Assembly: GCF_036687315.1 (NCBI RefSeq)
Contig: NZ_CP144683.1
Coordinates: 2,922,001-2,986,000 of the forward strand
DNA from: Sphingopyxis sp. TUF1
Lineage (GTDB): Bacteria > Pseudomonadota > Alphaproteobacteria > Sphingomonadales > Sphingomonadaceae
Direction: 5' to 3'
DNA: 64,000 bases
Shown: piece by piece, positions 18,669 through 63,638 of the stretch
How positions within the stretch are numbered: position 1 is the first letter of the stretch
Layout: the number at the start of each line of letters is the position of its first letter
The notes under the pieces: model-generated
What the model saw: the letters and a program-made list of their open reading frames with translations, nothing else
The model's database searches: none
Told to the model about the DNA's origin: nothing
Program-made: the position numbers and the translations under genes

Positions 18669-18686
18669 TACTTAGTTTTCTAAGTA
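18669..18686. promoter_or_regulatory. Palindromic operator TACTTAG-N4-CTAAGTA (site 1)
   Basis: A perfect 7-4-7 inverted repeat, TACTTAG-TTTT-CTAAGTA, lies between the divergent TonB receptor and MFS genes, 63 bases from the receptor start. Near-copies are found at 55683, 60180 and 63621, always between divergent catabolic genes. Size and symmetry suit a TetR- or MarR-type dimer. Confidence 0.7.
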
Positions 18687-18750
18687 ACTGCTTCTATATA
18701 ACAGGCTGACCTGCAGCGCAAGAGCGGGCGGCATTCGGGAGGACGGATCG

Positions 18751-20124
18751 ATGGCGACCAAGATCGTAAGGAAGGCGCCCCAAGATGAGCCGATCGGTCA
18801 CGAGGACACGGGACCGCATTGGCCGCGTCCCGCCTATAGCTGGTACGTCGTCGGCGTCCTGTTGCTTGCCTATACGCTGTCCTTCATCGATCGCATGATC
18901 CTCACTCTGCTCGTTGCGCCAATCCGCGCCGCGCTCGAGATTTCGGATACGGAGGTCAGCCTGCTCATCGGGCTGGCCTTCGCGCTTTTCTATACCTTGC
19001 TCGGACTACCGATCGCGTGGATCGCCGACCGCTGGAGTCGCCGCAACCTGATCATGTCGGGGGTGGCATTGTGGAGCGTCATGACCGCGGCTTGCGGTTT
19101 TGCCGGAAGCTATGGGGCACTGTTTCTCGCACGCATGGGGGTCGGGGTGGGCGAGGCGGCGCTCTCGCCCGCCGCTTATTCGATGCTCAGCGATATGTTC
19201 CCGCGCGACAAGCTCGCGCGTGCGATGGCGGTCTATTCGATCGGCGTGCCGCTTGGATCGGGGGTCGCGATGATTCTCGGGTCCTTCGTCGTGCAAGCGG
19301 TGCTCGCGGCGCCAATGGTCAATCTGCCGCTGATCGGCCCCGTCGACGCGTGGCGCACGATCTTCCTGTGGGTCGCGGCGCCTGGGCTGCTGATTTGCTT
19401 GCTGCTGCTGACGATCCGCGAGCCGCTGCGGCGCGGAGTTGAGCAGGCCAGTTCACAGGGCACCGCGGCGCCCGGCTTCATCGCGCATCTGAGAGCGCAG
19501 CGCGCCGCATTAGGGGCGCTGTTTGCAGGCATGTCGTTGATCGGGCTCGTCATGTATGGCGTGATCGCATGGGTGCCGACCTTCTTCGCCCGCACTTATG
19601 GCATGGACGTATCACAGGCAGGACTGTGGTTTGGCATCATAATGGCGACCGGCGGCGCGGCCGGGCTCGTGATGGGCGGGACGCTTGCCGACCGGATGTT
19701 CGCTCGCGGCGTTCTCGACGCGCATCTGCGCGTGATGCGACTGTCGATCCTGCTCGGCGGGCCGTCCCTGCTTGCCGCCGCGCTGATGCCCAGCGCGACG
19801 CTCGCATTCCTATTGCTCGCGCTCGCTTTCCCGATGTTGACAATGCACGGCGTCGGCACGGTGGCGCTTCAGTTCATCACGCCGAACCAATATCGTGCCC
19901 GCGTCACGGCGCTGTATTTCTTCGTCGTCAATCTGATCGGGCTTGGTTTCGGCCCGCTGCTGATGGCGCTGCTCACCGACCATCTTTTCGGCGATGACGG
20001 CGCGCTGCGCTATTCGATCGCGCTCGTAACGGCGGCCGCACTGCCGCTTGCTGCGCTCATCCTGACCATGGGCTTCTCGGCCTTCGCCCGCGATCTTGCC
20101 AGAATGGCGAAGGAAACCGGCTGA
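18751..20124 (+). CDS. MFS transporter
   Basis: Inner-membrane carrier of 457 aa with 12 predicted helices. The motif-A-like loop IADRWSRRNLI (about 90-100) follows helix 2; FIDRMILTLL marks helix 1. It belongs to the group of major facilitator proteins that carry organic acids or aromatic compounds in sphingomonads. It is divergent from a TonB receptor and shares its operator region, so the pair could move the same compound across outer and inner membranes. The MFS gene at 54-55.6 kb has the same kind of context. Confidence 0.88.
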   Translation: MATKIVRKAPQDEPIGHEDTGPHWPRPAYSWYVVGVLLLAYTLSFIDRMILTLLVAPIRAALEISDTEVSLLIGLAFALFYTLLGLPIAWIADRWSRRNLIMSGVALWSVMTAACGFAGSYGALFLARMGVGVGEAALSPAAYSMLSDMFPRDKLARAMAVYSIGVPLGSGVAMILGSFVVQAVLAAPMVNLPLIGPVDAWRTIFLWVAAPGLLICLLLLTIREPLRRGVEQASSQGTAAPGFIAHLRAQRAALGALFAGMSLIGLVMYGVIAWVPTFFARTYGMDVSQAGLWFGIIMATGGAAGLVMGGTLADRMFARGVLDAHLRVMRLSILLGGPSLLAAALMPSATLAFLLLALAFPMLTMHGVGTVALQFITPNQYRARVTALYFFVVNLIGLGFGPLLMALLTDHLFGDDGALRYSIALVTAAALPLAALILTMGFSAFARDLARMAKETG

Positions 20125-20242
20125 TTCCTGCCCGACCGGCGAAAATCCCACTCGTCGGCGAGGGGCCGCCGGACTGGTTCCTCGCGAGGCCTTTATGCCA
20201 ACATGGATCAATTTCGGCGGGCAATCAGGCGCTGCACGCGCC

Positions 20243-20374
20243 CTATGGCGCAACGATGGCGAGTCCGCCGGTTGATGGGTCGAGGCCGATTTCGGAATAG
20301 ATCGGCTCGAACAATTTGAGCAACCGCTCGCGCTCGCTCTGCGGGAGCCGCCACCCGGTAATGGTGCGGCTCAT
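20243..20374 (-). CDS. Small protein of 43 aa coupled to exonuclease III gene
   Basis: The ATG at 20374 overlaps the exonuclease III stop codon (ATGA), which suggests translational coupling. The product begins MSRTITGWRLPQSERERLLK and ends with TAG after GGLAIVAP. The beginning resembles larger proteins of unknown function that may be cut short here; I do not recognise a domain. It may be a truncated gene. Confidence 0.45.
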   Translation of the reverse strand: MSRTITGWRLPQSERERLLKLFEPIYSEIGLDPSTGGLAIVAP

Positions 20375-21653: not shown

Positions 21654-21781
21654 CATAGGTCAATCGGGACGGTTTCGGTTTCGTGCGGAACGCCACCGCG
21701 CCGCAACTTTCATTTCAAGGACGTGTTGGTGGGGCAGGGCGCGCCGATGCCCGGCGCGTTGTTCTCCCGAAAGGAATGCCC

Positions 21782-50210: not shown

Positions 50211-50801
50211 CTATTCGGCGGGCACGGGTGTGCGGCCGGTGATCATGCCCGTGGCTCGCGTGCCGTCGGCCTGCATCGGATCGTGCGCGACGTCGCGGTC
50301 GTCGAACGTCTTGGTCCAGGCAGCAAATTCCAGGCATACGCCGTCGGGGTCGAAGAAATAGACCGAGCGCACGAAGACATCGTCGTTCATTTGGTCCGAC
50401 GACTGTGTTGGCGAATTGTCGTGATTGAGGATCTTGGTGACCTCGACGCCTTTGTCTACGAGCCGCTGATAATATTCATCGAAGCGTTCGGCGGGGACAT
50501 TGATTGCGATATGGTTCATCGATCCGTGCGCCGAGACGAAACTGCCCTTCGTCGGCAGCGCGGCGGGGGCGGAAATGCCGGGCACGGCTTCGGGCGCATC
50601 GGGAAACCAGAAAAAGGCCAGGCTGTCGCCGTTGCCCATGTCGAAAAAGAAATGCTGACCGCGCCCGCCAGGCAGGTCGATCGTCTTGGTCAGCGGCATA
50701 CCGAGGATGTCGCGATAAAAGGCAACCGTCTTTGCCATATCCTTGCACACGAGGGCGAGGTGGTTGACCCCGCAGAATTCAAATTCCTTGTTGGCAGCCA
50801 T
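50211..50801 (-). CDS. VOC family (glyoxalase/dioxygenase fold) protein
   Basis: Protein of 196 aa with a vicinal-oxygen-chelate fold. Metal ligands are probably His in VNHLALVCKD, His in SMNHIAINVP and Glu in VCLEFAAW. Members include glyoxalase I, extradiol dioxygenases and isomerases. Two ATGs are adjacent (50804, 50801); the second has better spacing to AAGGAG. Last gene of the leftward operon, directly after a GST gene, so a glutathione adduct is a plausible substrate. Confidence 0.85.
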   Translation of the reverse strand: MAANKEFEFCGVNHLALVCKDMAKTVAFYRDILGMPLTKTIDLPGGRGQHFFFDMGNGDSLAFFWFPDAPEAVPGISAPAALPTKGSFVSAHGSMNHIAINVPAERFDEYYQRLVDKGVEVTKILNHDNSPTQSSDQMNDDVFVRSVYFFDPDGVCLEFAAWTKTFDDRDVAHDPMQADGTRATGMITGRTPVPAE

Positions 50802-50815
50802 CATCCGTCTCCTTG

Positions 50816-51433
50816 TCAGCTTATCTGGGCACTGGGGCGGCTTTTCATCCGCTCGAACCAGCGCAAAACATGTGTGCAGGCAGGATCGACCGGCTGGCCG
50901 ACCGACGCGCCGAAATCGAGGAAGGCAAAGAGCATGACGTCGGCAAGGCTGATCGTATCGCCTGCGATATAATCGCGCCCCGCGATCAGCGGATCGAGCC
51001 AGCGGATGCCGTCCTGCGCAATCGCCTTGAGTCCCGCCGCCGCTTCGGGCAGGCAGCGCGTCCGCGGCTGAAACAGCGCGAGACCTTCGGCAAAGCGAAA
51101 GCCGTTTGTAAGCGGCTCGCAAATCTTGAGATCGACCCGGCGCGTCCACATACGAGTGGTCGCGCGCGTCTCGGCGGTCGTGCCGATCAGCGCGGGCTCG
51201 GGAAAACGCTCTTCCAGATATTCGCAGATGGCGGTCACTTCGTTCAGCATCGACCCGTCGTCAAGCTGAAGCGCCGGGGTCTGCCCCGCCGGATTGACGT
51301 CGATATTATAGGGAGCGCGCCGGTTCTCGCCGCCGCGCAGGTCGATCATGACCTCCGGAAGCTCGATACCCTTTTCCGCCATGAACAGCTTCACGACGCG
51401 CGGGTTGGGGCCGACGCTGTTATAGAATTCCAT
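50816..51433 (-). CDS. Glutathione S-transferase (GST 1)
   Basis: Cytosolic GST of 205 aa: thioredoxin-fold domain (1-80; VGPNPRVVKLFMAEKGIE, NPAGQTPALQL, glutathione gamma-Glu site LNEVTAICEYLEE) and an all-helical domain (about 90-200; AGDTISLADVMLFAFLDFG). The first-domain class cannot be named with certainty; it is different from the three Nu-like GSTs further right. Its promoter region overlaps a 35-bp palindrome at the end of the upstream gene. Confidence 0.88.
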   Translation of the reverse strand: MEFYNSVGPNPRVVKLFMAEKGIELPEVMIDLRGGENRRAPYNIDVNPAGQTPALQLDDGSMLNEVTAICEYLEERFPEPALIGTTAETRATTRMWTRRVDLKICEPLTNGFRFAEGLALFQPRTRCLPEAAAGLKAIAQDGIRWLDPLIAGRDYIAGDTISLADVMLFAFLDFGASVGQPVDPACTHVLRWFERMKSRPSAQIS

Positions 51434-51464
51434 CCTGTCCTCTCACGACTCTTATAGCATCACC

Positions 51465-51499
51465 CTCGCCAATCGTCAATTTAGTTGACGATTGGCGAG
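51465..51499. promoter_or_regulatory. 35-bp palindrome with core GTCAAT-TTA-GTTGAC
   Basis: Arms CTCGCCAATCGTCAA (51465-51479) and its exact reverse complement (51485-51499) surround TTTAG. It overlaps the stop of the SMP-30 gene and lies 32 bases before GST 1. No T-run follows, so an operator is more likely than a terminator. Related to the palindrome at 24176-24210. Confidence 0.65.
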
Positions 51500-52404
51500 A
51501 TAAGTCCCGGTCGCGGCCAGCGAACGCGGTAAAGCGTGCCCGTCGTCGATGCGGTGATATAGGCATCGCGCCGGTCGGCGCCGCCGAAGGCGATGTTGGT
51601 GATCCCGACGTCGGGCAGCGGCACGAACTCCGACCCGCCGCCGTCGGGGTCAAAGACGGTGACCCCGCCTTCGACCATCGTGCCGACGCAGATACGTCCG
51701 CTTTCCTCGACGGCGAGGCTGTCGAGGAGGCGAAAGGCGGGCGGCGTGCCGACAAAGCGGCCCGGCGCCCACGGCGGCGGTGGGGCGAGGGTGCCCGGCG
51801 CGACGATGTCCATCGCCCACAGACGCGCAGTCATCGTCTCGCTGACATAGAGCGCCCGCCCGTCGGGGGAGAGCCCGATGCCGTTCGGCCCCATCATGTC
51901 GGCGCGCTGGCGGCTGATACCCGATCCATCGGCGGCTGCGTAAAAGATCGCACCATGGTCGCGGCCAGACTCGCGGACCTGGCCATGGTCGGTGAACCAG
52001 AAGCCGCCATGTGCATCGAAAATAAGATCGTTCGGACCTTTGAACCGCTCACCCTCGAAGCTGTCGTAGAGCGTCGTGACAATACCCGTGGCAAGGTCGA
52101 CCCGCTGGATCGACCCGCACGCTTCGGGGTTCGCGGCGTGGCCGGGGAACAGCAGGGAACCTGCCTCGATCCATTCGAACCCGCCATTGTTGCAGACATA
52201 GGCGGCGCCGTCGGGGCCGATCGCTAGTCCGTTCGGCCCGCCCCCCAGTTCGGCAACGACCGACAGTTCGCCGTCGGGTGCCACGCGGGTCAGGGTCCCG
52301 CGCGCGATCTCGACGAGCAGCACCGACCCGTCGGCCATCGGCACCGGCCCCTCGGGAAAGCGAAGGCCCGTGGCGACGACCGCGGGTGCGCCATAGCCGC
52401 TCAT
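51481..52404 (-). CDS. SMP-30/gluconolactonase family lactonase
   Basis: Six-bladed beta-propeller hydrolase of 307 aa. Family segments: GLRFPEGPVP at the start, GGGPNGLAIGPDG, KGPNDLIFDAHGG with FTDHG (metal ligands Asn and Asp), and MGPNGIGLSPDGRALYVSET. Members open sugar or aromatic-derived lactones. ATG overlaps the stop of the CMD-like gene (ATGA). The neighbouring CMD-like gene fits a muconolactone or similar lactone step, though that is inference. Confidence 0.88.
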   Translation of the reverse strand: MSGYGAPAVVATGLRFPEGPVPMADGSVLLVEIARGTLTRVAPDGELSVVAELGGGPNGLAIGPDGAAYVCNNGGFEWIEAGSLLFPGHAANPEACGSIQRVDLATGIVTTLYDSFEGERFKGPNDLIFDAHGGFWFTDHGQVRESGRDHGAIFYAAADGSGISRQRADMMGPNGIGLSPDGRALYVSETMTARLWAMDIVAPGTLAPPPPWAPGRFVGTPPAFRLLDSLAVEESGRICVGTMVEGGVTVFDPDGGGSEFVPLPDVGITNIAFGGADRRDAYITASTTGTLYRVRWPRPGLISPIVN

Positions 52405-53048
52405 TCCTGCGGCGGTCGCGGCGCGCTGAGGAAATCGGCGGCGCTGAACCCTTCGGGCGCGGCGATCTCGACGATGGGGTCTTCGCGCGCGTCATATTCC
52501 ATGCGGAGCGCGCGGGTGATGACCGCGTGCATATCGTAAAGACAGGTGATGTAGGTGAATTCGAAAATCTGCTCGTCGTTCCAGAAGGTCTTGAGCTTGT
52601 CGAACACTTCGAGTGGCACGCGGCCGCCGGCCTGGCTCAGGCAATCGGCATAGGCCAGCACGGTGCGTTCCTGATCGTCATAGCAATCCGCGACCGGCCA
52701 ATGCGCAATGGCTGCAATCTTTTCCTCGCTGACGCCGAGGCCGCGGAGTGACTTGCAATGCTGCGAAAATACGAACTGGCTGCCTTTGACCCAGCCCGCG
52801 CGCGTCTGTCCCAGCTCGCGCAGCACCGGATCGATCGTGCGGGCAGGGTTGCGATAGACCGCGAAGCCCTTGACGGCATGTTCGAAGATGTCGGGCGACA
52901 GCGCAAAAACGGTCCACCAGTCGCCGGGCGTGCCCGTCGCGGTGCCGGGTTCGGCAACCGGATCGCGGTCGCCGAAAAGGCGGTTGTAATAGGCAAGGAC
53001 GGTCTCGTCGGTGACTTCGGATCGGGGAACCTGACGCAGGACGGGCAT
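52401..53048 (-). CDS. Carboxymuconolactone decarboxylase-like (AhpD fold) protein
   Basis: All-helical protein of 215 aa with the CMD/AhpD fold (RTIDPVLRELGQTRAGWV, FVFSQHCKSLRGLGVSEEKI). Members are either 4-carboxymuconolactone decarboxylases or peroxidase-like; this one has only one Cys in the core (QHCKS), so it lacks the AhpD CxxC pair. ATG at 53048 follows GAGGAG; the longer open frame is not supported. Operon position between SnoaL-like and SMP-30 genes. Confidence 0.82.
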   Translation of the reverse strand: MPVLRQVPRSEVTDETVLAYYNRLFGDRDPVAEPGTATGTPGDWWTVFALSPDIFEHAVKGFAVYRNPARTIDPVLRELGQTRAGWVKGSQFVFSQHCKSLRGLGVSEEKIAAIAHWPVADCYDDQERTVLAYADCLSQAGGRVPLEVFDKLKTFWNDEQIFEFTYITCLYDMHAVITRALRMEYDAREDPIVEIAAPEGFSAADFLSAPRPPQE

Positions 53049-53058
53049 GGAATACTCC

Positions 53059-53454
53059 TCAGGCGTTCGCAAATTTGCGGAATTCGGCGACATGCGCGCT
53101 GTCGAAATATTCGTCGAGCCGCGTGATCTTGCCATTTTCGACCTTACAGATGATCGCGCAGGGCAGGCGCACCGGGCCGTCGTCGTGGACGCGGACGCCC
53201 TTGAGCACATGCTGCTGAACGAAGCCGCCGGGAAAGGTGGTGAGGCGGCGATCGGCGTATTCGCGGTTCTTGATCCGCGTCACCATGCCGGTCAGCGTCT
53301 GCGCAGTGTGTGCGGGAGTGACGATCAGCTCGTCAGTATTGTGCCAGATTTCGGCGTCGGGCGTGAAGCTGTTCTGCATCGTTTCGATGTCCCCTGCCTC
53401 GATCGCGTCGAAAAAGCGCGTCGCCATCGCGCGGATGTCATCCTGTTCGCTCAT
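53059..53454 (-). CDS. SnoaL-like (NTF2 fold) protein
   Basis: Protein of 131 aa with the NTF2/SnoaL fold: ATRFFDAIEAGDIETMQNSF, AEIWHNTDELIV, and a C-terminal strand (VENGKITRLDEYFD). Relatives are isomerases, cyclases or dehydratases on ring compounds. ATG at 53454 follows GAGGAG. Neighbours are a SDR gene upstream and a CMD-like gene downstream, all in one operon. Confidence 0.82.
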   Translation of the reverse strand: MSEQDDIRAMATRFFDAIEAGDIETMQNSFTPDAEIWHNTDELIVTPAHTAQTLTGMVTRIKNREYADRRLTTFPGGFVQQHVLKGVRVHDDGPVRLPCAIICKVENGKITRLDEYFDSAHVAEFRKFANA

Positions 53455-53464
53455 ATTGTTCTCC

Positions 53465-54352
53465 TCAGATCTTGGCGCCGAACATGCGGCCGCCATTGGC
53501 GGCGATCAGTCCATTGATGTCGTCGCCGCGATAGTCGGGATCAGCCGACGGACCGAAGGCAGCCAGCATGTCCTGCGTCACCAGTTCGGCCATCTTTTTC
53601 CATTCGGGATGGGTGAAGATCCAGTAGTCGCCATTCTCGATGGCCTGCACGACGCGCGCGCCGACCTTGGCGGGGTCCATCCCGCCAGCGAGTACGCCCT
53701 GCATCGCCTGACTCGTCGCCGCAGCCTTGCCGACCTCGACCTCCACGGGCCGCAGGTCGCGTGTCGTTTCGACGATCCGCGTCGCCGACATACCCGGCAT
53801 CAGCACTGAAATATCGACGCAGGTCTCGGCCAGCTCGTTCCGCAGCGCCATCGCGATGCCGAGCGTCGCATATTTGGAACTGATATAAGCGACCGAGATC
53901 GGCGGCGGCACGATCGCGACCATCGACGATGTGATGACGAGATGCGATGGCTCGCCGCTCGCCTTCATGTCGCCGAGGAAAGTGCGACACGCATAAAGAT
54001 GCGCGTGCGCGTTGACCGCATAGTTCCAGCGCCACACGTCGGTGTCATAGCGCTCGAAAGGCCCCGACCCGCCGCCGACCCCGGCGTTGCTGAACAGGAT
54101 GCGTACCGGTCCAAAAATCTGCGCTTTTTCTGCGGCTTCCGCCCAGCTTTCTTCGCTGGTGACGTCGAGGCGGAGGCCGATTGCGTTTGCACCCTCGCCA
54201 CGCAACGCCGCTGCCGCGGCTTCGGCGCCAGCTCCGTCGATGTCGGCGAGAATGACCGAGGCCCCATTGGCGACGAGCGCTTTCGCGGTGGCGAGGCCGA
54301 GGCCGCTGGCGCCGCCGGTGACGAAGGCCGTCTTGCCTGCGACGTCGGTCAT
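53465..54352 (-). CDS. Short-chain dehydrogenase/reductase (SDR 1)
   Basis: NAD(P)-dependent oxidoreductase of 295 aa. Classical motifs: TGGASGLG cofactor site (about 12-19), NAG in LFSNAGVGGG, and catalytic Ser plus YISSK (Tyr-x-x-x-Lys). An acidic residue after the second strand (LADID) suggests NAD(H). ATG at 54352 overlaps the stop of the MFS gene (ATGA). It probably oxidises an alcohol of the imported compound. Confidence 0.9.
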   Translation of the reverse strand: MTDVAGKTAFVTGGASGLGLATAKALVANGASVILADIDGAGAEAAAAALRGEGANAIGLRLDVTSEESWAEAAEKAQIFGPVRILFSNAGVGGGSGPFERYDTDVWRWNYAVNAHAHLYACRTFLGDMKASGEPSHLVITSSMVAIVPPPISVAYISSKYATLGIAMALRNELAETCVDISVLMPGMSATRIVETTRDLRPVEVEVGKAAATSQAMQGVLAGGMDPAKVGARVVQAIENGDYWIFTHPEWKKMAELVTQDMLAAFGPSADPDYRGDDINGLIAANGGRMFGAKI

Positions 54353-55644
54353 TCGGCGAAATCCTTTTCGAGATGGCGCGTCATCCGATACTGCGCGATG
54401 CCCGCCGCCGCCGCGAAGGGCATCAGCGCCATCAGCGCCCAGCGCAGGCTGTCGACGCCGTGCGCATCCATCAGCGCGTCGCTGACGATGCCGGCGAACA
54501 GCGGACCAAGGCCAAGGCCGATGATGTTGAACATCAGCATAAGCACCGCGGCAGCCGTGGCGCGGCTGCGCGGCGGGGTCAGGTTTTGCACGAGCGCGAG
54601 CGCCGGGGCGACATAGGCTGTGCACGCCGCCATCGGGATCAGCATCAGCGCGAGCGACAGCTGCCAGCTATCGACGAGCAAGGCTGCGATGAAGGTCGGG
54701 ATCAGCACCGCCGTCGCCAGTGCAGGGATGGTGCCATAGGCGCGCGCCGAGGTCTTGGCGCGGTGGCTGACCAGCCAGCCGCCGCCGAGGATGCCGATAC
54801 CGAAAGTGATGCCCGCGGCGGGCGCGAACCATGTCGCCATCGCCTCCAACGGCATATTTTGCGTGCGCATCAGAAAAGCGGGAATCCAGTTGAGCATCCC
54901 GTAGCTGACGAAGGCCGCGAGCCCGCTGCCGATCATCACCATGCGCAGCGACGGGCGGCGGATGAACATCGCGAGGCTCTGGCTGAAAGGCAGTGCTTCG
55001 TCGGCGGGTTTGTGGGTATCCATCGCGCCGCGCGCAGGCTCGCGGACGAGCCAGATCAGCAGCGGGGCGACAAGGATGCCAACGATGCCGATGACGATAA
55101 AGGCATTGCGCCAGCCGATATTGGCGGCGGCCCATGCACCGAAGGCCGCGCCGACGAAGACGCCGAACGGCCCGTTACAGGTAAAGATCCCGATTGCGAG
55201 CGGCCGCTGCGCGGAGGGATAATAGTCGGCAAGCACCGACAGCGACGGTGCGGTGCCGCCCGCTTCGCCTGCACCGACGCCGAAACGCATCAGCGCCAAT
55301 TGCCAGAAATTCGACGCCAGGCCGCACGCCGCCGTAAAGCCGCTCCAAACGATGCAGGCGATGCCGATCAGCCGGATGCGGTTCCAGCGGTCGGCGATCA
55401 TCGCGACAGGAACGCCCATTGCCGCATAGAAAAGCGCGAAGGCGAGGCCGGTCAGCAGGCCGAACTGCGTATCGCTGAAATTCATGTCGGCGCGGATCGG
55501 CTCGACGAGCACCGACAGCAGCTGACGATCGACGAAATTGATCGTGCCGACGATGAACAGCATCACCAGCGCGACGTTGCGGCGCAGCGCGAGGCCGCTT
55601 TCGTGCGCAGCTGCGCCGGCGGGAACGGCGGTGGCCTCGGTCAT
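54349..55644 (-). CDS. MFS transporter (island copy)
   Basis: Inner-membrane carrier of 431 aa with 12 helices: NFVDRQLLSVLVEPIRADM in helix 1, the loop IADRWNRIRLIG, and LMRFGVGAGEAGGTAPS. It belongs to the same sphingomonad group as the carrier at 18.75 kb. ATG at 55644 follows GGGGAG. First gene of a seven-gene leftward operon and divergent from SDR 2, with a shared palindromic operator between. Confidence 0.9.
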   Translation of the reverse strand: MTEATAVPAGAAAHESGLALRRNVALVMLFIVGTINFVDRQLLSVLVEPIRADMNFSDTQFGLLTGLAFALFYAAMGVPVAMIADRWNRIRLIGIACIVWSGFTAACGLASNFWQLALMRFGVGAGEAGGTAPSLSVLADYYPSAQRPLAIGIFTCNGPFGVFVGAAFGAWAAANIGWRNAFIVIGIVGILVAPLLIWLVREPARGAMDTHKPADEALPFSQSLAMFIRRPSLRMVMIGSGLAAFVSYGMLNWIPAFLMRTQNMPLEAMATWFAPAAGITFGIGILGGGWLVSHRAKTSARAYGTIPALATAVLIPTFIAALLVDSWQLSLALMLIPMAACTAYVAPALALVQNLTPPRSRATAAAVLMLMFNIIGLGLGPLFAGIVSDALMDAHGVDSLRWALMALMPFAAAAGIAQYRMTRHLEKDFAE

Positions 55645-55682: not shown

Positions 55683-55700
55683 TACTTAGATATTTAAGTT
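55683..55700. promoter_or_regulatory. Palindromic operator TACTTAG-N4 (site 2)
   Basis: TACTTAG-ATAT-TTAAGTT matches the site at 18669 with two mismatches in the right arm. It lies between the divergent MFS and SDR 2 genes, 39 bases before the MFS start. Confidence 0.6.
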
Positions 55701-55750: not shown

Positions 55751-56518
55751 ATGGAGATCAAGGGCAAAAGCGCGATCGTCACGGGGGCGGCGGGCGGCAT
55801 CGGTCGCGCCACGGCGGTGATGCTGGCGGCACGCGGTGCGCGGGAGATTGCGCTTGTCGATGTCAACGAAGCGGGACTTGCCGAGACGGCGAAGCTGGTT
55901 GAAGGCGAGGGCGCGCGTGCGGGCATCCACCGGCTCGACCTTTCCGACATTCCAGCGACCGAGGCGTGGTTCCGTACGCATGGCGACGTCGACATATTGC
56001 ACAACAATGCCGGCGTTGTGTCGGGGCTGCCGCAATTTCCCGACGTCGATGCCGCCCGCCTGCGCTGGATCATCGACGTTAACTTGACCTCGCTCGTCGC
56101 GGCGACGCAGATCGCCGTGCAGGCGATGCGGAAAAATGGTGGGGGAGTCATCGTCAACACGGTCTCGACCGTCGCGCTCGGCACCGGGTTCTACGATGCC
56201 ATGTATGCGACGACCAAGGCGGCGGTGATGATGTTCACGCGCTGCTGCGCGCCGCTGAAAGACGAATGCAACGTCCGCGTCGCCGGGATGCTGCCGGGGC
56301 TGGTCGATACGCCGATCCTCGATACGACCGGGGCGGGCGGCAAATCCGAATGGATGAAGGCCGTGCTCGCGAACAACGAGGCGTGCGCGCCCGAGGATAT
56401 TGCGGGGGGCGTGATCGCGCTGATCGAGGACGACAGCCTAGCGGGTGGCGACTGGCTGGCAGTGCGGCGGCTGGGCGGTCAGATCGAATATCAGTGGGGG
56501 CACGCCGACACGATATAA
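55751..56518 (+). CDS. Short-chain dehydrogenase/reductase (SDR 2)
   Basis: NAD(P)-dependent oxidoreductase of 255 aa with TGAAGGIG (12-19), NNAG in LHNNAGVVSG, and YATTK as catalytic Tyr-Lys. The tail is acidic and ends WGHADTI. It is alone on its strand, divergent from the MFS operon, with its promoter containing the palindromic operator. A dispersed palindromic repeat follows and could serve as a terminator. Confidence 0.9.
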   Translation: MEIKGKSAIVTGAAGGIGRATAVMLAARGAREIALVDVNEAGLAETAKLVEGEGARAGIHRLDLSDIPATEAWFRTHGDVDILHNNAGVVSGLPQFPDVDAARLRWIIDVNLTSLVAATQIAVQAMRKNGGGVIVNTVSTVALGTGFYDAMYATTKAAVMMFTRCCAPLKDECNVRVAGMLPGLVDTPILDTTGAGGKSEWMKAVLANNEACAPEDIAGGVIALIEDDSLAGGDWLAVRRLGGQIEYQWGHADTI

Positions 56519-56623: not shown

Positions 56624-57334
56624 CTAGCGCGTCGGCGCTTCCAGCATATTCTTGCCGAACAGATTCGACCATTGCTCCTCGGTGAGTACGGGGCGCGCGC
56701 TCGACAGGTTCGCGGCATTCTTGACGTCGGTGCCCGCGATCACCGCCGGTCGCTCGCCGATCCGCGCGAACCAGTTGGCGACCGCAGGATAATCGTCGAG
56801 CGTCAGCCCGATGGCGCGGATCGCGCGCGTCCATGGCCAGCAGGCGATGTCGGCGATCGAATATTCCTCGGCCAGATAGTCCGCCTCGCTCAGCCGGCCG
56901 TTAAGGACATGGAGCAGGCGCAGCGTCTCGTTGCGATAGCGCTCGACCGGATAGGCCTGCCCCTCGGGCGCATAGCGGATGAAATGATGCGCCTGTCCCT
57001 GCATCGGGCCAAAGCTCGCCATCTGCCACATCAGCCATTGCTGCGCCTGGCTGCGGCGCCGGGGATTTTCGGGGAGCAGCTGGCCGCTCTTTTCGGCGAG
57101 ATAGAGCAAAATGGCGCCGCTCTCGAATACCGGCAACGGTGCGCCGCCACCAGTGGGATCATGATCGACGATCGCGGGCAGGCGGCCGTTCGGATTGATG
57201 CGGCGATATTCCGGAGTCAGATGATCGCCTTCGAGCATGTTCATCGCGATCAGCCGGTGCTCCAGCCCGATCTCCTCCAGCATGATCGAAACCTTGTGGC
57301 CGTTCGGCGTGGGGGTGAAATAGACGTCGATCAT
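56624..57334 (-). CDS. Glutathione S-transferase, Nu-like (GST 2)
   Basis: GST of 236 aa with the N-terminal signature TPNGHKVSIMLEEIGLEHR, typical of the Nu (YghU/YfcG) class, where Thr and Asn act on glutathione. The substrate loop has NPNGRLPAIVDHD and the gamma-Glu site FESGAILLYLAEKSG. Nu GSTs use disulfide-bond reduction or glutathione-thioether removal. ATG overlaps the SnoaL-like gene stop (ATGA). Third gene of the TonB receptor operon. Confidence 0.9.
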   Translation of the reverse strand: MIDVYFTPTPNGHKVSIMLEEIGLEHRLIAMNMLEGDHLTPEYRRINPNGRLPAIVDHDPTGGGAPLPVFESGAILLYLAEKSGQLLPENPRRRSQAQQWLMWQMASFGPMQGQAHHFIRYAPEGQAYPVERYRNETLRLLHVLNGRLSEADYLAEEYSIADIACWPWTRAIRAIGLTLDDYPAVANWFARIGERPAVIAGTDVKNAANLSSARPVLTEEQWSNLFGKNMLEAPTR

Positions 57335-57831
57335 GCGGGGTTTTCTCCGGCGAAAATGGCGCGCGCGGCGGCAAAAGCGGCTTCAAATGCCTCTTTCCCC
57401 GCGGGATAGGCGACGACGGCCAACGTCACGCCCGCAATTTTCCACCCGTTCTGCCGCACCAGCCGATGCGTGTAACGGCCGATCAGATCGCCGAGCAGGG
57501 TGCGGTCCTCGACCCCGACGATATGGACGGCATCGACGACGCTGGTCACCGTCGCACGGTCGCCGTCGATGATGGCGCTGACGTTGTGCAACTGGTGTGC
57601 GGTCGCATCGAACCCTTCGAGCGTTCGGCAGCGGGTTGTCCACTCGTCCGCGGACACGGTCGCGACGAGCGAGCCGATCGCGCCATAGTCGATCGCGATT
57701 TCGTCGGCGAAGAGCGCGCGATAGGCGGCCCAGTCGCGCGCATCGAGCGCGGATGCGTAGCAGGTCACGACCGCCACCGCCGCTTCCCTGTCGAGGAAAG
57801 CTTCGATGGCGGCCGATCCCTGGGACATCAT
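57331..57831 (-). CDS. SnoaL-like (NTF2 fold) protein, second copy
   Basis: Protein of 166 aa with a SnoaL_4-like fold: VVTCYASALDARDWAAYRAL, FADEIAIDYG, and a Trp-rich strand near the C-terminus (RQNGWKIAGVTLAV). Relatives include ring-hydroxylating dioxygenase small-subunit-like and isomerase-like proteins. It lies 8 bases downstream of the TonB receptor gene and overlaps GST 2. Confidence 0.83.
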   Translation of the reverse strand: MMSQGSAAIEAFLDREAAVAVVTCYASALDARDWAAYRALFADEIAIDYGAIGSLVATVSADEWTTRCRTLEGFDATAHQLHNVSAIIDGDRATVTSVVDAVHIVGVEDRTLLGDLIGRYTHRLVRQNGWKIAGVTLAVVAYPAGKEAFEAAFAAARAIFAGENPA

Positions 57832-57839
57832 ATTCGGAC

Positions 57840-60110
57840 CTAGAACTTGATACCGGCCTCAACCGAAATGTTGCGCGTGGGCTCGAGATAAAGGATTGCG
57901 CGCGGAACCGGCGTGATCGGGAAGGGCAGGTTGAACGCGCTGCCGATCGTCTTCTGGTTGGTCAGATTCTTCCCGACCAGCGCGAGGTGCCAGCTATCAT
58001 CGCGATCGGCGAGCTGGACGCGCAGGTCGAGCTTCACATAGCCGTCCTGGACGCCGAAGATCGGGCTCTGGTTGTCCGAATTGAAATATTTCGAACGGCC
58101 CGCGGCGACGCCGGTGATATCCAGCTTCAAATCTTCCGACATGTCGAAACGCGCGTGCGCGGTGACGCTGCCTGTCCATTTCGACGAATAGGCTACCGGA
58201 TAACCGGCAAGATTGTTCGTCGCCGGCGTACAGCCGACTTGCGAGGCAAGACAGGCTGCGCCCGGATAATCGTCATATTTGATATCCGAGTAGGCGGCCG
58301 AGGCGCTGATATCGAAATTCTCGATCGGATAGATGCTGAGCGATCCTTCGATGCCCTTCGACGTCGCGGCCGCAGCGTTGCCGGTCAGATAGCTCGACGT
58401 CGCGGGCTGATAGACCGAAACCTGCAAGTCCTTGAACTTGGTGTGATAGAGCGAGACGTTCGCGACGACCTTGCCGTCGAACAGCGTCGATTTGACGCCC
58501 GCCTCGAAATTTTCCGACCGTTCGGGCTCAAAGGTGAAGGTCGCGTTCGTCGTACCGAGCGTGTTCGACACGAAACCGCCCGACTTCGAACCGCGGCCCC
58601 AGGTTCCGTAGATCATGATGCGCGGCGCGATATCGTACTGCAGTGTCACCGACGGATCGACATTGCCTTCGCTGATCTTGCCGACCGCGCTCGAAATCGG
58701 GCGTAGCGCAAAAGGCTGGCCGTTGAGGCCGTTCGATCCGTAGACCAGCCGGGCGGCGAAATCGCCTTCCTTCTTCGTATGCGAATAACGCAGGCTGCCG
58801 ATCGCGCGGAAGGCGTCGGTGACGTTGAAGGTGCCCTGTCCGAACACCGACCAGCTTTCGGCTTCCTGATTGAAGACGCTGTCGATGCGGCCGAAATAGG
58901 GTCCGGCAAAGACGCCAGGGATCGTCAGGCTCGGCAGGTTGAAGCCCTGATATTGTTCGAGCGTGTAGTTCGATTTGTCATAATAGGCGCCAACGATGAA
59001 TTCGAAGGTCTTGCCGGTCGGCGAAAGGATGCGAATTTCCTGCGAGATCTGGTCGAAACGTTCGGGGAAGGCGTTGTAGACCGAGTTTGCGGTGAACGCG
59101 CCGCCACTGTTCGGGATCGTCTGGTCGAACCCGTTGATAATCTTCGACTTGAACCAGCTGTACCCCGTTACCGAGGTCAGCGTGAAATCGCCGAGCGCGA
59201 GGTTGCCGACGCCCGAGATCATCACCGATTTATTGTCATTGCCCTCGTTGCCCAGCGCCGAGCGTTCGAGATAGCGCGTCGTCTGCGGATCCTGCCCGCT
59301 GGTCAGCGGGCTCGACACGGTGATGCCGCCGTTGACTTCGCGGTTCCCGTATTCGACCTTCGCGGTATAATCGAAATTGGCCGACGGCTCCCACTTCAGC
59401 GTCAGGCGCAGCAATTGCGACTTGATTTCGGGATCGTCGTGATCGGTCGCGCGGTTATAGATATAGCCGTCCTGATTGACGATCTTGTACGCGAGGCGCG
59501 CGCCCAGCGTGTCGCTGATCGGCCCCGACAGATAGCCTGAAAAATCGGTGCCTTTGTGATCGAAGTTGTAAAGTCCGGTCAGCGCGCCTTCGAATTCGCG
59601 CGTCGGTCCGGCCGAAACGACGCTCACCGCGCCCGCGGCCGTGTTCTTGCCGAAAAGCGCGCCCTGCGGACCGCGCAGCACCTCGACGCGCGCAAGGTCG
59701 AAGAAAGGCGCCTGCGCCTGCCGGTTGCGGCCGGCGTAGATGCCGTCGACATAGAGCGACACCGACTGGTCGAACGCGAAGTTTGCCGGCGGCGAACCGA
59801 AGCCGCGGATATAAATGACGTCGTTGCCCGCGGTCGATTGGACGAAGACGTTCGGCGTGTAGTTCATCACCGCCTTGATGTCGCTCGTGTTGAACTCGGC
59901 GAGCTTGGCGCCGCTCACCACTTCCATCGAGATCGGCACGTCCTGAAGGCTCTGTTCGCGCTTTTGCGCGGTGACGATGATTTCGTTGGTTGCGCTGTCG
60001 TCGTTATCCGCTGCTTCGGCAGGCGCTGTTTGCGCCCACGTCGGTGCGGCGTTGGCAAGCATCGCGAACGCTGCGACGCCCGACAGCAGAAACTGGTTAC
60101 GAGCCTTCAT
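57840..60110 (-). CDS. TonB-dependent outer-membrane receptor (island copy)
   Basis: Outer-membrane transporter of 756 aa. ATG at 60110 follows GGGAGGG and opens a signal peptide (ending APTWAQ). The TonB-box region NEIIVTAQKREQSLQDVPIS is very like that of the receptor at 16.4 kb. The plug and barrel are complete, with a terminal aromatic (VEAGIKF). It starts a three-gene operon with SnoaL-like and GST 2 genes, and shares an operator region with the divergent DUF3237 gene. Likely substrate importer for the island. Confidence 0.93.
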   Translation of the reverse strand: MKARNQFLLSGVAAFAMLANAAPTWAQTAPAEAADNDDSATNEIIVTAQKREQSLQDVPISMEVVSGAKLAEFNTSDIKAVMNYTPNVFVQSTAGNDVIYIRGFGSPPANFAFDQSVSLYVDGIYAGRNRQAQAPFFDLARVEVLRGPQGALFGKNTAAGAVSVVSAGPTREFEGALTGLYNFDHKGTDFSGYLSGPISDTLGARLAYKIVNQDGYIYNRATDHDDPEIKSQLLRLTLKWEPSANFDYTAKVEYGNREVNGGITVSSPLTSGQDPQTTRYLERSALGNEGNDNKSVMISGVGNLALGDFTLTSVTGYSWFKSKIINGFDQTIPNSGGAFTANSVYNAFPERFDQISQEIRILSPTGKTFEFIVGAYYDKSNYTLEQYQGFNLPSLTIPGVFAGPYFGRIDSVFNQEAESWSVFGQGTFNVTDAFRAIGSLRYSHTKKEGDFAARLVYGSNGLNGQPFALRPISSAVGKISEGNVDPSVTLQYDIAPRIMIYGTWGRGSKSGGFVSNTLGTTNATFTFEPERSENFEAGVKSTLFDGKVVANVSLYHTKFKDLQVSVYQPATSSYLTGNAAAATSKGIEGSLSIYPIENFDISASAAYSDIKYDDYPGAACLASQVGCTPATNNLAGYPVAYSSKWTGSVTAHARFDMSEDLKLDITGVAAGRSKYFNSDNQSPIFGVQDGYVKLDLRVQLADRDDSWHLALVGKNLTNQKTIGSAFNLPFPITPVPRAILYLEPTRNISVEAGIKF

Positions 60111-60162: not shown

Positions 60163-60177
60163 GTCAATCTGATTGAC
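60163..60177. promoter_or_regulatory. Palindrome GTCAAT-CTG-ATTGAC
   Basis: A perfect 6-3-6 inverted repeat matching the core of the palindromes at 24186 and 51475. It lies two bases from operator site 3 in the same divergent promoter region. Confidence 0.6.
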
Positions 60178-60179
60178 CC

Positions 60180-60191
60180 TTAGTATACTAA
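60180..60191. promoter_or_regulatory. Palindromic operator core TTAG-TATA-CTAA (site 3)
   Basis: A perfect 12-base palindrome equal to the core of the ACTTAG-N4-CTAAGT sites; the outer AC/GT bases are replaced. Located between the divergent TonB receptor and DUF3237 genes. Confidence 0.55.
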
Positions 60192-60232
60192 TTGTTTTAT
60201 GCTTGTCCATAGGCAGGAAGAGGATTCGTGGC

Positions 60233-60739
60233 ATGAGTGAAGAAATTAGGGACAGGGAACCCGCCGCGCTGGCAAGCCGGCATCTGTGCACCGTCGAGTT
60301 CGAAGTGGGCGGCGGAATCATAGGCATCGGCGCCTCGCCATTCGGCGACCAGCGGCTTGGGTATATTAGTGGAGGGCGCTTCTTCGGGCCGCGAATCAAC
60401 GGCATAGTCCTGTCAGGTGGCGGAAACTGGTCGCGCAGCGGGCGGCTCGGCGACACGGTATCGGTCGGCACCTTCGACGCGCGCGCAGTGTGGCAGACCG
60501 ATGACGGCGAACTCATCTATGTCAGCTACACGGGCCGCAACATCATTCCCGACGATGTGCGCACCACCTTCGCCGACCCCGCTGTGCCCGACGCCGACGC
60601 ATCGCGATATTATCTGCGAATCGCCCCCGTGTTCGAAACCGCGAGCGCGCAATATGGCTGGCTCAACGGCGTGCTGGCGGTGGGGGTCGGCGAGCGAACC
60701 GATTTTGGCGTCCGCCATGTAATCCACGAGATACTCTGA
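60233..60739 (+). CDS. DUF3237 family protein (island copy)
   Basis: Protein of 168 aa, DUF3237: LSGGGNWSRSGRLGDTVSVG, LIYVSYTGRNI and QYGWLNGVLAVGVGER are the matching parts of the family fold. ATG at 60233 follows AGGAAGAGGA. It is the first gene of a two-gene unit with GST 3, one base apart, and divergent from the TonB receptor. Pairing with a TonB receptor also occurs at 16 kb, which suggests a shared substrate class. Confidence 0.84.
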   Translation: MSEEIRDREPAALASRHLCTVEFEVGGGIIGIGASPFGDQRLGYISGGRFFGPRINGIVLSGGGNWSRSGRLGDTVSVGTFDARAVWQTDDGELIYVSYTGRNIIPDDVRTTFADPAVPDADASRYYLRIAPVFETASAQYGWLNGVLAVGVGERTDFGVRHVIHEIL

Positions 60740-60740
60740 A

Positions 60741-61466
60741 ATGATCGACCTGCATTATTCGGCGACGCCGAACGGACAGAAGATTGCCATCATGCTGGAG
60801 GAGATCGGCGCATCCTATCGCGTCATGCCCTATGACATCTTCAACGGCGACCAGCTGACCGCCGAGTTTGGCCGGATCAATCCCAACCATAAGCTGCCCG
60901 CGATCGTCGACCATAGTCCCGTGGACGGCCGTGATCCGATCACCGTCTTTGAATCGGGAGCGATCTTGCAATATCTGGCCGAAAAAAGCGGGCGCTTCCT
61001 TCCGTCATCGGGTGCCGCGCGCGCGGCTACATTGTCATGGCTGACGTGGCAGGTTGCGGGGCTGGGGCCGATGGGCGGACAGGCGAGTCATTTCTTGCGC
61101 TACGCTCCCACCGGGCAAGATTATGCGATCGAGCGCTATACGAAGGAACTGACGCGTCTGCTCAGCGTGCTCGAAAAACGGCTGGAGAAAAGTGCCTATG
61201 TCGCCGGCGAGGAATATACGATCGCCGATATGGCGATCTGGCCCGGCCGCGCATCGGCGTTCGTTATGGGAATGGCTCTCGACGAATGGCCCGCTATGCG
61301 GGGTTGGTTCGAACGCATCCGCGAGCGTCCGGCTGTCGCACGTATGATGGCGCGCGACGATCTGATGCCACCCGCGAAATATATCGGGCGGCACCAGCGG
61401 CTTGATGAAAAGGAATGGTCGAACATGTTCGGCGATGCGAACCAAGCGGCGGCGCGGGGGGACTGA
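60741..61466 (+). CDS. Glutathione S-transferase, Nu-like (GST 3)
   Basis: GST of 241 aa, paralogous to GST 2: ATPNGQKIAIMLEEIGASYR, INPNHKLPAIVDHS, FESGAILQYLAEKSGRFLP, and a helical domain with EEYTIADMAIWPG. The Nu-class signature is preserved. It is one base after the DUF3237 gene and surely co-transcribed. Fairly divergent from GST 2, so a different substrate or step is likely. Confidence 0.9.
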   Translation: MIDLHYSATPNGQKIAIMLEEIGASYRVMPYDIFNGDQLTAEFGRINPNHKLPAIVDHSPVDGRDPITVFESGAILQYLAEKSGRFLPSSGAARAATLSWLTWQVAGLGPMGGQASHFLRYAPTGQDYAIERYTKELTRLLSVLEKRLEKSAYVAGEEYTIADMAIWPGRASAFVMGMALDEWPAMRGWFERIRERPAVARMMARDDLMPPAKYIGRHQRLDEKEWSNMFGDANQAAARGD

Positions 61467-61501
61467 GGGCGAGAGGCTGGGAACACCGATTGCAGACAAT
61501 A

Positions 61502-61641: not shown

Positions 61642-61688
61642 AGCGGCAACTCCCCACCCTAAAGCCGCCATCATCCTTACGCACCCTC

Positions 61689-62393
61689 TCACCGCTTCGC
61701 ATGCTGCCGATCCCCCCACAAGATCGCGCGGTGCTCGTCGGTGAAGCCGGTGAGTCCACCCTCGATCGTTTCGGCACGCGCGACGCCGACTGTCATGCCC
61801 TCAGCGACCGCAGGACGCTCGAGCATCGCTGCGCCCCAGCGGTCGACATTCGGAAAACGTCCGGCCTTTTCGATCAGCTGGCGACGCAGATAAGGAAGCG
61901 TCGCCATATCGGCGATCGTATACTCGTCGCCCGCCAACCACTTGGCCTCGCCCAGCCTTTTGTCGAGGACCATCATCAACCGGTCGACCTCGCGGCTGTA
62001 ACGTTCGATCGCATATTCGTGCCGGTCCTTGGCATAATGGGTGAAATGCGCTTCCTGCCCGAACATCGGCCCGACGCCCGACACCTGGAACATCAGCCAT
62101 TGCCAGCAGATCGCGCGCGCTGCCGGATCGGTGGGCAGGAAGCGTCCGGTCTTTTCGGCGAGATAGAGCAAAATCGCGCCGGTCTCCCAAAGCACGAACC
62201 GCTCGCCATCCGGTCCTTTGTCGTCGACGATCACGGGCGTCTTGTTGTTTGGGTTGAGCGCGAGAAATTCGGGGGTCAGCTGATCGCCCGCCAGAATGTC
62301 GATATATTCGAGGCGCCAGTCGAGCCCCATCTCGAGAAGCGCGATCGCGATCTTGCGCGCATTGGGGGTCGGGCCGCCGTAGAGCGTGATCAT
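61689..62393 (-). CDS. Glutathione S-transferase, Nu-like (GST 4)
   Basis: GST of 234 aa: GGPTPNARKIAIALLEMGLD (Nu-like but GHK replaced by ARK), LNPNNKTPVIVDDK, WETGAILLYLAEKTGRFLP and DEYTIADMATLPYLRRQ. ATG at 62393 lies four bases after the CoA-transferase stop, with GGGAGG in that gene's end. Co-transcribed with the CoA transferase. Confidence 0.9.
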   Translation of the reverse strand: MITLYGGPTPNARKIAIALLEMGLDWRLEYIDILAGDQLTPEFLALNPNNKTPVIVDDKGPDGERFVLWETGAILLYLAEKTGRFLPTDPAARAICWQWLMFQVSGVGPMFGQEAHFTHYAKDRHEYAIERYSREVDRLMMVLDKRLGEAKWLAGDEYTIADMATLPYLRRQLIEKAGRFPNVDRWGAAMLERPAVAEGMTVGVARAETIEGGLTGFTDEHRAILWGDRQHAKR

Positions 62394-62397
62394 CGCC

Positions 62398-63561
62398 TCA
62401 ATCCTCCCGTCCGAGCCATCGTTTGATGACGTCGGCGCCGTCCTGTCCGACGCCAAGCGGGGCAGGGCGGCGAACGCTGCCCGGTGTCGCCGACAGTTTT
62501 GGAAATACGCCCTGCATCGTGATCTCGCCAAACTCGTCGTCGGCAACTTTCACCAGCGCGTCGCGTGCGGCAAAATGCGGGTCGGCGAGCATGTCTTCCG
62601 CGTCGAAGACGCGGCCCGCAGGGACGGCGGCCTCGACCATCTTCGCTTCAAGCTCGGCGATGGTCAGCGTTCTTGTCCATTCGCCAATGAGCGCATCGAG
62701 CTCTTCCTGCCTCGCGCCGCGCGCACGGTGCGTCGCATAGCGTTCGTCGCGCGCCAGTTCGGGCCGCCCCATCGCCGCGGCTAGCCGCGCAAAGACGCCA
62801 TCCTGATTGGCGCCAATCAGATATTCGCCATCCTTGCACGGATAGACGTTCGACGGCGCGATGCCGGGCAGCGTCGACCCGGTGCGGCGGCGCTTGGTGC
62901 CGCTCGCCGAATAGTCGGACACCGTCGATTCCATCACCTGCAACACCGCCTCATAAAGCGCCGAGTCGACGATCTGCCCTTCGCCGGTCTTGCCGCGGTG
63001 ATGGAGCGCCACGAGCGCGCCCATGCACCCGTAGGTCGCAGCGAGCGTATCGCCGATCGATACCCCCATGCGCGCGGGCGGCAGGTCCGGATAGCCGACG
63101 ATGCCGCGCCAGCCGCCCATCGCCTCGCCGATCCCGCCGAACCCGGCGCGCGCGGCATAGGGACCGGTCTGGCCGTAGCCCGAGACGCGCACGACGATCA
63201 GACCGGGGTTGGCCTTGCGAAGCTCGACGGGGTCGAGGTTCCATTTTTCGAGCGTGCCGGGACGGAAGTTTTCGATCAGGATGTCGGCCTTGGCGATCAA
63301 TTCGCGCGCGAGCGCCTGTCCATCTTTGGACCGCAGGTCGCACGCCACCGAAAATTTGTTGCGTGCGATGACGCGCCACCAGCTTGGCTTGTCACCCTGA
63401 CCCCAATGGCGCATCTGGTCGCCCGTCCCCGGTGGTTCGAGCTTAACGATTTCGGCGCCCATGTCGCCGAGCAGTTGGCCGCAGAAGGGGCCGGCGATCA
63501 GCTGCCCCATTTCGACGACCCTGATGCCTTCCAGCGCACCCCCGCTGCCCGTCTCGCCCAT
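62398..63561 (-). CDS. CaiB/BaiF (class III) CoA transferase
   Basis: Enzyme of 387 aa transferring CoA between carboxylic acids. Landmarks: IRVVEMGQLIAGPFCGQLLG, GDMGAEIVKLEPP, ENFRPGTLEKW, the catalytic Asp in SIGDTLAATYG, and the small-domain loop. ATG at 63561 follows AAAGGA. Divergent from the HMG-CoA-lyase-type gene: activation of a dicarboxylic or hydroxy acid followed by lyase cleavage is a known pairing (as for itaconate-type or HMG-type acids). The acid is unknown here. Confidence 0.92.
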   Translation of the reverse strand: MGETGSGGALEGIRVVEMGQLIAGPFCGQLLGDMGAEIVKLEPPGTGDQMRHWGQGDKPSWWRVIARNKFSVACDLRSKDGQALARELIAKADILIENFRPGTLEKWNLDPVELRKANPGLIVVRVSGYGQTGPYAARAGFGGIGEAMGGWRGIVGYPDLPPARMGVSIGDTLAATYGCMGALVALHHRGKTGEGQIVDSALYEAVLQVMESTVSDYSASGTKRRRTGSTLPGIAPSNVYPCKDGEYLIGANQDGVFARLAAAMGRPELARDERYATHRARGARQEELDALIGEWTRTLTIAELEAKMVEAAVPAGRVFDAEDMLADPHFAARDALVKVADDEFGEITMQGVFPKLSATPGSVRRPAPLGVGQDGADVIKRWLGRED

Positions 63562-63620
63562 ATCATTCCTTTCGCGGCCGACTCCGATAGAGACGACCTG
63601 CCTCGCCCATGGTCATTCTA

Positions 63621-63638
63621 TACTTAGAATGCTATGTA
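63621..63638. promoter_or_regulatory. Palindromic operator TACTTAG-N4 (site 4)
   Basis: TACTTAG-AATG-CTATGTA matches the site at 18669 with one mismatch in the arms. It lies between the divergent CoA transferase and HMG-CoA-lyase-type genes. Confidence 0.65.

Follow-up and report, generated by a model that had tools for sequence, protein, structure and literature searches.

MarR dimers bind inverted repeats and, in most cases, act as repressors. Here we analyse a palindromic element, TACTTAG-N4-CTAAGTA, that recurs between divergent genes in a 64,000-nucleotide stretch of the Sphingopyxis sp. TUF1 genome (contig NZ_CP144683.1, positions 2922001-2986000; hereafter "the window"), and its candidate reader, a MarR-family protein that we designate MarR1. 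Four described systems come closest. The operator of SlyA has the consensus TTAGCAAGCTAA, or TTAN6TAA (PMC5797941). CouR of Rhodococcus jostii is a MarR repressor of p-hydroxycinnamate catabolism that acts at one repeat between divergent promoters and is released by a CoA thioester (PMC4737184). Saro_0803 of Novosphingobium aromaticivorans is a MarR-like regulator of nov1 (PMC10046596), and PA3458 of Pseudomonas aeruginosa is a MarR-type protein, the motif of which was likened to the SlyA site by its authors (PMC8070244).

The four palindromes of the window very probably act as genuine regulatory switches for genes of one uncharacterised degradation pathway. We consider it highly probable that the palindrome is the operator of MarR1, tying together one dispersed regulon from which the regulator would be released by a pathway intermediate. 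Searches of open-licence papers in PubMed Central revealed no earlier account of the regulon, its operator or this set of genes; the listed text matches to TACTTAG together with MarR ("marrow", "Marr") were uninformative.

Results

The window holds exactly four strong matches to the palindrome, all intergenic (Table 1). These are the sites of a preliminary description of this DNA, save that the one listed there by its core at 60180 begins, as a full 18-mer, at 60177. Relative to TACTTAG-N4-CTAAGTA, the sites at 18669, 63621 and 55683 carry zero, one and two mismatches, respectively; at 60180, the core TTAG-N4-CTAA is exact and the outer bases have diverged (CCCTTAGTATACTAATTG). With up to three mismatches allowed, the window contains three matches to the full palindrome versus 0.08 expected, and none of 100 shuffles gave three. 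The core with one mismatch matches five times versus 3.46 expected, a count not above chance (at least five in 28 of 100 shuffles); the fifth of these matches, at 9528, was left out of the operator set. A scoring matrix built from 16 sites of two relatives (G009 and G023), with no own-genome site included, finds nothing above 8 bits in the window except these four sites, each of them outside called genes, which bears out the by-eye impression that no site lies inside a gene. Pfam assignments likewise uphold the gene kinds first named around the sites, for all four divergent pairs: a TonB-dependent receptor and a major facilitator superfamily (MFS) carrier at 18669, an MFS carrier and a short-chain dehydrogenase (SDR) at 55683, a TonB-dependent receptor and a DUF3237 protein at 60180, and a CoA transferase and an HMG-CoA-lyase-like enzyme (HMGL) at 63621. 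The 18-mer may also resemble the 18-bp palindromic operators of HucR- and UrtR-type MarR regulators, a group further marked by a urate pocket.

Across the whole genome, a single contig of 3,470,982 bp, the exact core occurs at five places (117480, 2770121, 2770838, 2940672 and 2982180, the last two being window positions 18672 and 60180), each of them a target promoter; the full palindrome with at most two mismatches likewise occurs at five places, all target promoters. The matrix was run over 168 kb of own sequence, in which the window part was blind and the regions outside it (except L069) had been picked for a motif match, and it gave nine sites of at least 22.9 bits, 9/9 intergenic. Of the five outside the window, two flank MarR1, two precede acyl-CoA ligase genes and one, at 117 kb, precedes an operon headed by an APH kinase fused to DUF6285. 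The proposed comparison of coding with non-coding DNA came out in the same sense, in regions picked for holding a cluster or site and not in a blind genome scan: strong matches were intergenic in 9 of 9 own cases, 18 of 18 in further Sphingopyxis regions and 29 of 30 in other genera, with coding shares of 86%, 88% and 92%, respectively.

Several three-mismatch places were not counted as sites: 417126 and 1439705, which share an identical 18-mer and both lack a called gene (an rRNA-operon reading was not confirmed by Rfam; one of the two has a partial tRNA match nearby); 1853194 and 2296467, within called genes; 2300088, which runs into the 3' end of such a gene; and 2171101, at only 12.9 bits. 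A possible tenth operator, also not counted, lies at 2987555-2987572 (L064:1555-1572) before an EamA carrier (EamA2) and scores 16.1 bits; its 18-mer recurs in G038 as the reverse complement.

The preliminary description saw no regulator of the regulon in the window, and the candidate indeed lies outside it. By Pfam, the genome encodes MarR domains at 2770435 and 2771750, among other places, and MarR1, at the first of these, passes the Pfam cut-offs for the family. One site lies about 115 bp upstream of its called start, another between MarR1 and the downstream FMN reductase gene, and a further one is common to a second MarR gene (MarR2) and the divergent acyl-CoA ligase gene. We read 30 MarR1 loci from the genus, that of TUF1 among them, to 1.5 kb on each side. 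Of these, 29 have the upstream site and 26 the full set of three; no site is found at L075, and only the first at L092, L097 and L098. A site adjoining the regulator's own gene, as in the autoregulation that is frequent in the MarR family though not strictly defining, is thus found at 29/30 loci. In the genome of L075 (G001), one strong site is kept, before the APH-DUF6285/acyl-CoA dehydrogenase operon adjoining MarR1. In database records, which overlap with the genus genome set, 28 of 29 loci of MarR1 relatives have at least one match above 17 bits.

At the level of named families, none of the 17 NCBIfam families listed for MarR1 (HpaR, Saro_0803, BilQ and others) reaches its cut-off. Scores were 57.1 bits for HpaR (cut-off 121.2) and 63.3 for TIGR04472 (cut-off 240); at 47.6 bits against a cut-off of 120, MarR1 is not a SlyA equivalog by the NCBIfam model. 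A separate locus, L220 (G002), carries a MarR1 ortholog with one internal stop reported (possibly only ahead of the real start) and a 21.7-bit site nearby; the other regulon genes are absent from the 19 kb read, and the locus is perhaps a remnant left after pathway loss.

MarR2, alone or jointly with MarR1, might instead read the palindrome. The site between MarR2 and the acyl-CoA ligase gene is present at 26/30 loci, and a paralogous cluster, read in three genomes, likewise pairs a MarR1-like with a MarR2-like gene. A genome of another genus (G152), however, keeps eight cluster sites with no MarR2 match at E 1e-12, for which reason we favour MarR1 as the reader, and in G001 a strong site remains with MarR1 and the APH operon, some 88 kb from MarR2. 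We thus regard a role for MarR2 in reading the palindrome as improbable.

MarR1 and the core travel together. Among 80 Sphingopyxis genomes, 62 have a MarR1 ortholog and 18 do not (14 with no match, 4 with matches only below 40% identity); CTTAG-N4-CTAA occurs in 61/62 of the former versus 3/18 of the latter (Fisher 1.9e-12, a test that treats related species as independent, which they are not). At least two strand matches of the core are found in 59/62 versus 0/18, and among genomes at least 90% complete, the core is present in 57/58 versus 2/13. A reversed control pattern gave 12.6 matches with MarR1 versus 9.9 without.

Individual sites are conserved in place and sequence. MFS1, the carrier at 18669, has orthologs (E 1e-120 or better) in 20/80 genus genomes, and the palindrome precedes it in 20/20 (own included), with all 14 arm bases exact in 19. 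In an ungapped alignment of these 20 copies anchored on the site, arm columns are 95-100% identical and the four spacer columns 45-85%; flanking columns are 40-85% identical save three at 90-95%. MFS2, the carrier at 55683, occurs in 59/80 genomes; its promoter has the site in 28 of 30 loci read (own included), with the off-consensus half kept (26 AACTTAAATAYCTAAGTA, 2 AGCTTAAATACCTAAGTA); relatives that retain MFS2 have thus mostly retained its site too, contrary to the outcome named beforehand as refuting. The two exceptions are G038, in which intervening genes were lost and MFS2 now stands behind a different TonB gene with its own operator, and G046, which was read only in its nearly identical upstream sequence. 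The 60180 site is alike in place and core in G009, G023, G004, G038 and G060, and the 63621 18-mer is identical in G009, G023, G060, G038 (reverse complement) and G450, of another genus.

In G009 and G023, the targets form a single block that spans about 28 kb and carries eight sites at the promoters used here. The block runs from (i) large and small aconitase subunits, MarR1, FMN reductase, MarR2 and an acyl-CoA ligase, through (ii) two hydrolases, the APH kinase, an enolase, a 2-hydroxyacid dehydrogenase, a MetE-like protein and a second ligase, to (iii) the window genes that begin with the VOC protein and end with HMGL, with order and sites unchanged (including the row behind MFS2 at 50211..54352). 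In TUF1, this block is divided among three regions (about 113-118 kb, 2.769-2.782 Mb and 2.972-2.987 Mb), with TonB1/MFS1 apart at 2.94 Mb. The cluster thus appears to have broken apart in this genome, its separated pieces having kept their operators. Among the 59 genomes with both MarR1 and MFS2, 47 have the two on one contig, 39 of them within 30 kb and 8 not; the remaining 12 have them on different contigs, where distance is uninformative.

The earlier proposal of one regulon spanning 45 kb accordingly needs dividing: on sequence evidence the single regulon stands, and the single span does not, as the targets occupy about 15.9-20.1 and 50.2-64 kb. Genes at 37.2-50.1 kb between these groups are mostly of housekeeping type by Pfam (rsmA, pdxA, surA, ilv and miaA types). 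Outside the genus, MarR1 (E 1e-40 or better) was found in 20 of 397 family genomes, in 7 genera counting its own (the search included six own-genus matches). In five clusters read, one per other genus, much of the gene set is kept, with 3 to 8 sites each.

Table 1. Operators, target genes and MarR genes (window positions unless marked as genome positions)
Feature	Position	Strand	Basis or remark
Operator, perfect palindrome TACTTAG-TTTT-CTAAGTA	18669..18686	.	31.5 bits
Operator TACTTAGATATTTAAGTT, between MFS2 and SDR255	55683..55700	.	24.5 bits
Operator CCCTTAGTATACTAATTG, between TonB2 and DUF3237	60177..60194	.	22.9 bits; exact core 60180-60191
Operator TACTTAGAATGCTATGTA, between CoA transferase and HMGL	63621..63638	.	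28.2 bits
MarR1, 184 aa	genome 2770249-2770803, about 151 kb before the window		PF01047 54.6 bits (cut-off 24.6), PF12802 45.5 (27)
MarR2, 146 aa	genome 2771573-2772013		MarR domain by Pfam
DUF3237 protein, downstream of TonB1	15892..16362	-	PF11578; accompanies TonB1 in six relatives read
TonB-dependent receptor TonB1	16426..18606	-	PF00593, PF07715
MFS carrier MFS1	18751..20124	+	PF07690
MFS2 row: SDR, SnoaL-like, CMD, SMP-30 lactonase-like, glutathione S-transferase (GST), glyoxalase/VOC	50211..54352	-	Pfam
MFS carrier MFS2, heads operon-like row	54349..55644	-	PF07690
Short-chain dehydrogenase SDR255	55751..56518	+	PF00106
SnoaL-like protein and YfcG-like GST behind TonB2	56624..57831	-	Pfam; GST by PDB sequence search
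TonB-dependent receptor TonB2	57840..60110	-	PF00593, PF07715
DUF3237 protein and GST	60233..61466	+	Pfam
YfcG-like GST and class III CoA transferase	61689..63561	-	Pfam, PDB sequence searches
HMG-CoA-lyase-like enzyme HMGL	63680..64000, continuing to genome 2986582	+	PF00682; NCBIfam NF004283 above cut-off
Second enolase in regulon	genome 2776002-2777318 (L061:16003-17319)		Pfam 278.3 bits
APH kinase fused to DUF6285	genome 116034-117377 (L063:4035-5378)		acyl-CoA dehydrogenase and aconitase behind

The target genes point to a catabolic pathway with its own route into central metabolism. The regulon enolase, a clear relative of true enolases, is one of two in the genome, the other (at 618719) scoring 430.9 bits by Pfam versus 278.3; the best solved relative of the 2-hydroxyacid dehydrogenase is a glycerate dehydrogenase/glyoxylate reductase. 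Together with the APH-type kinase, these genes suggest an exit via glycerate and 2-phosphoglycerate to phosphoenolpyruvate, and, given also a CoA transferase, an HMGL-type lyase and an aconitase-type hydratase, they point to possible cleavage of a small hydroxy-diacid. For the 377-aa hydrolase, a protein search gave 5803 matches among 8000 scored candidates, with generic names or none among the matches listed. Cleavage of lignin beta-ethers was considered for the GSTs; for the two that were searched, the closest solved chains are YfcG-like. The APH-DUF6285 operon is reminiscent of LvaA/LvaB of levulinate catabolism, and possible parallels to the pathway may lie in glutathione catabolism of the isoprene type and in lyase chemistry like that of itatartarate or citramalate. 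As a neighbour of the TonB1/MFS1/DUF3237 module, about 2 kb away, a LysR-type regulator is encoded at 12929-13831, with no link to the palindrome.

Discussion

In the mechanism we propose, a MarR1 dimer would bind TACTTAG-N4-CTAAGTA, each half-site taking one winged helix, and would thereby block the divergent promoters to both sides. MarR1 would control its own gene, the downstream flavin reductase, MarR2 with its acyl-CoA ligase, and further pieces of the pathway, the shared operator holding the separated parts of the cluster together as one regulon. Release would come from a pathway intermediate, plausibly an acyl-CoA thioester, since the targets include two acyl-CoA ligases and a CoA transferase. 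We thus infer binding by MarR1, repression rather than activation, the class of ligand and the type of substrate from the genes and sites described above.

Several observations weigh against this reading. The first are raw counts: genome-wide, up to three mismatches gave 14 places versus 40 for the reversed control pattern, and the exact core gave 5 versus 24, i.e., no excess in either case. Such counts, like that of the one-mismatch core in the window, are what would be expected if the palindromes had arisen by chance, or as a side effect of AT-rich promoters, and were not one operator, and the case consequently rests on position, match quality and conservation. On those grounds, with arms invariant while spacer and flanks drift, with the core dependent on the presence of MarR1, and with placement alike in relatives and in other genera, we regard chance as already refuted and its residual probability as negligible. 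The second concerns co-occurrence. MFS2 is present in 59/62 genomes with MarR1 and 0/18 without; the set of genomes with MarR1 is thus nearly the set with the pathway, and co-occurrence alone is no proof that MarR1 binds. There are also exceptions, G051 having a MarR1 ortholog without the core, and G030, G049 and G075 the core without MarR1. Outside the genus, G327 has three sites above 17 bits, none of them listed for the promoters of MFS2/SDR, TonB2/DUF3237 or the CoA transferase. Lastly, a promoter scanner gave a sigma-70-like match at one of the four window operator regions only, over 60180. By eye, a TTGACA box 17 bp from AAGTAT (3/6 to TATAAT) spans the 55683 site, and boxes resembling TTGAC adjoin those at 18669 and 60180; the occlusion of promoters by MarR1 is therefore argued from these boxes and from knowledge of the family.

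A more specific difficulty attaches to the 18669 operator. MarR1 paralogs, 46-56% identical, stand beside or within about 10 kb of TonB1/MFS1 in nine relatives: in G026, G012 and G008 they share one row, and in six further genomes the proximity is given by coordinates. The 18669 operator may therefore once have had a different reader, and it is conceivable that it belonged to a MarR1 paralog (MarR3) now lost, leaving it an orphan or to be taken over by MarR1; at E 1e-15, the own genome indeed has MarR1 and no paralog. However, six of the 20 MFS1 genomes (own included) have MarR1 alone at this threshold, and the arms are exact in all six, so that the site still looks selected; moreover, in G152 a module resembling TonB1/MFS1 (50-54% identical) is part of the MarR1 cluster and has a site. 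Origin from a lost paralog is thus unlikely as the account of this operator, somewhat less so than a reading by MarR2; MarR1 is its likeliest reader in TUF1, and it may have had an older relation to the paralog. In the stretch that faces the operator by comparison with SlyA, MarR1 has T94-T95-V96-V97, and three paralogs have T-T-A-V, T-T-T-I and T-T-A-V. Paralogous MarR/FMN reductase/MarR sets with a TonB receptor near TonB1/MFS1 were seen in three relatives, at L183:6362-13475, L184:11154-18218 and L185:10983-17975; Pfam, applied to the first, adds a sulfatase and an acyl-CoA dehydrogenase-like gene there.

As to what the MarR1 regulon encodes, we put forward only tentatively, and with rather less than even confidence, that it amounts to an entire glutathione-dependent catabolic pathway, as yet undescribed, for a substrate so large or rare that two TonB receptors are needed, with its own exit to central metabolism, and that its supercluster was broken more than once in the genus while the operators kept a single regulon. 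The exit of such a pathway would lead from hydroxypyruvate, or an analogue, through glycerate and 2-phosphoglycerate to phosphoenolpyruvate.

Sphingomonads are widely used to degrade difficult compounds, and genes labelled merely as DUF3237, SnoaL-like or GST here gain a candidate regulator and an operator and are listed as members of one regulon, with distant pieces of the chromosome tied to one pathway. An operator paired with a ligand-responsive repressor would also offer a direct route to the inducer, and the genus, in which split clusters exist alongside intact ones, provides a setting in which to ask if a regulon can persist in trans once its cluster is gone.

Compared with the described systems, the likeness to SlyA is closest at the level of the operator: the TTAG-N4-CTAA core is common to both, making the site here one of SlyA type, and MarR1 aligns to the SlyA chains 3q5f (E 6.8e-10) and 3deu (8.7e-10). 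The palindrome here is, however, extended to TACTTAG-N4-CTAAGTA, and of the base-contacting SlyA residues S62, V64 and R65 (PMC4737184), two differ in MarR1 (T94, V96, V97). With Saro_0803, MarR1 shares the role of a MarR regulator of sphingomonad catabolic genes and an A/T-rich site near a -10 box; it differs in the inverted repeat, which is GCAATA--TATTGC for Saro_0803, and in scoring 40.5 bits against that model's cut-off of 200. PA3458 likewise has a SlyA-like motif with sites near the promoter boxes of repressed genes, but its motif is TTHGNASDSRAARDA and its binding sites number more than 300, in contrast to the nine strong sites and extended exact palindrome found here. In regulatory layout, CouR offers the nearest parallel, as a local MarR regulator of several catabolic promoters in CoA-thioester catabolism, with a single inverted repeat between divergent promoters that overlaps promoter boxes; its operator (cATTGA--TCAATg) and its pathway are different, and release by an acyl-CoA would here be predicted from the target genes. 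In kind, the system is a known one: a MarR-family regulator with a SlyA-like operator.

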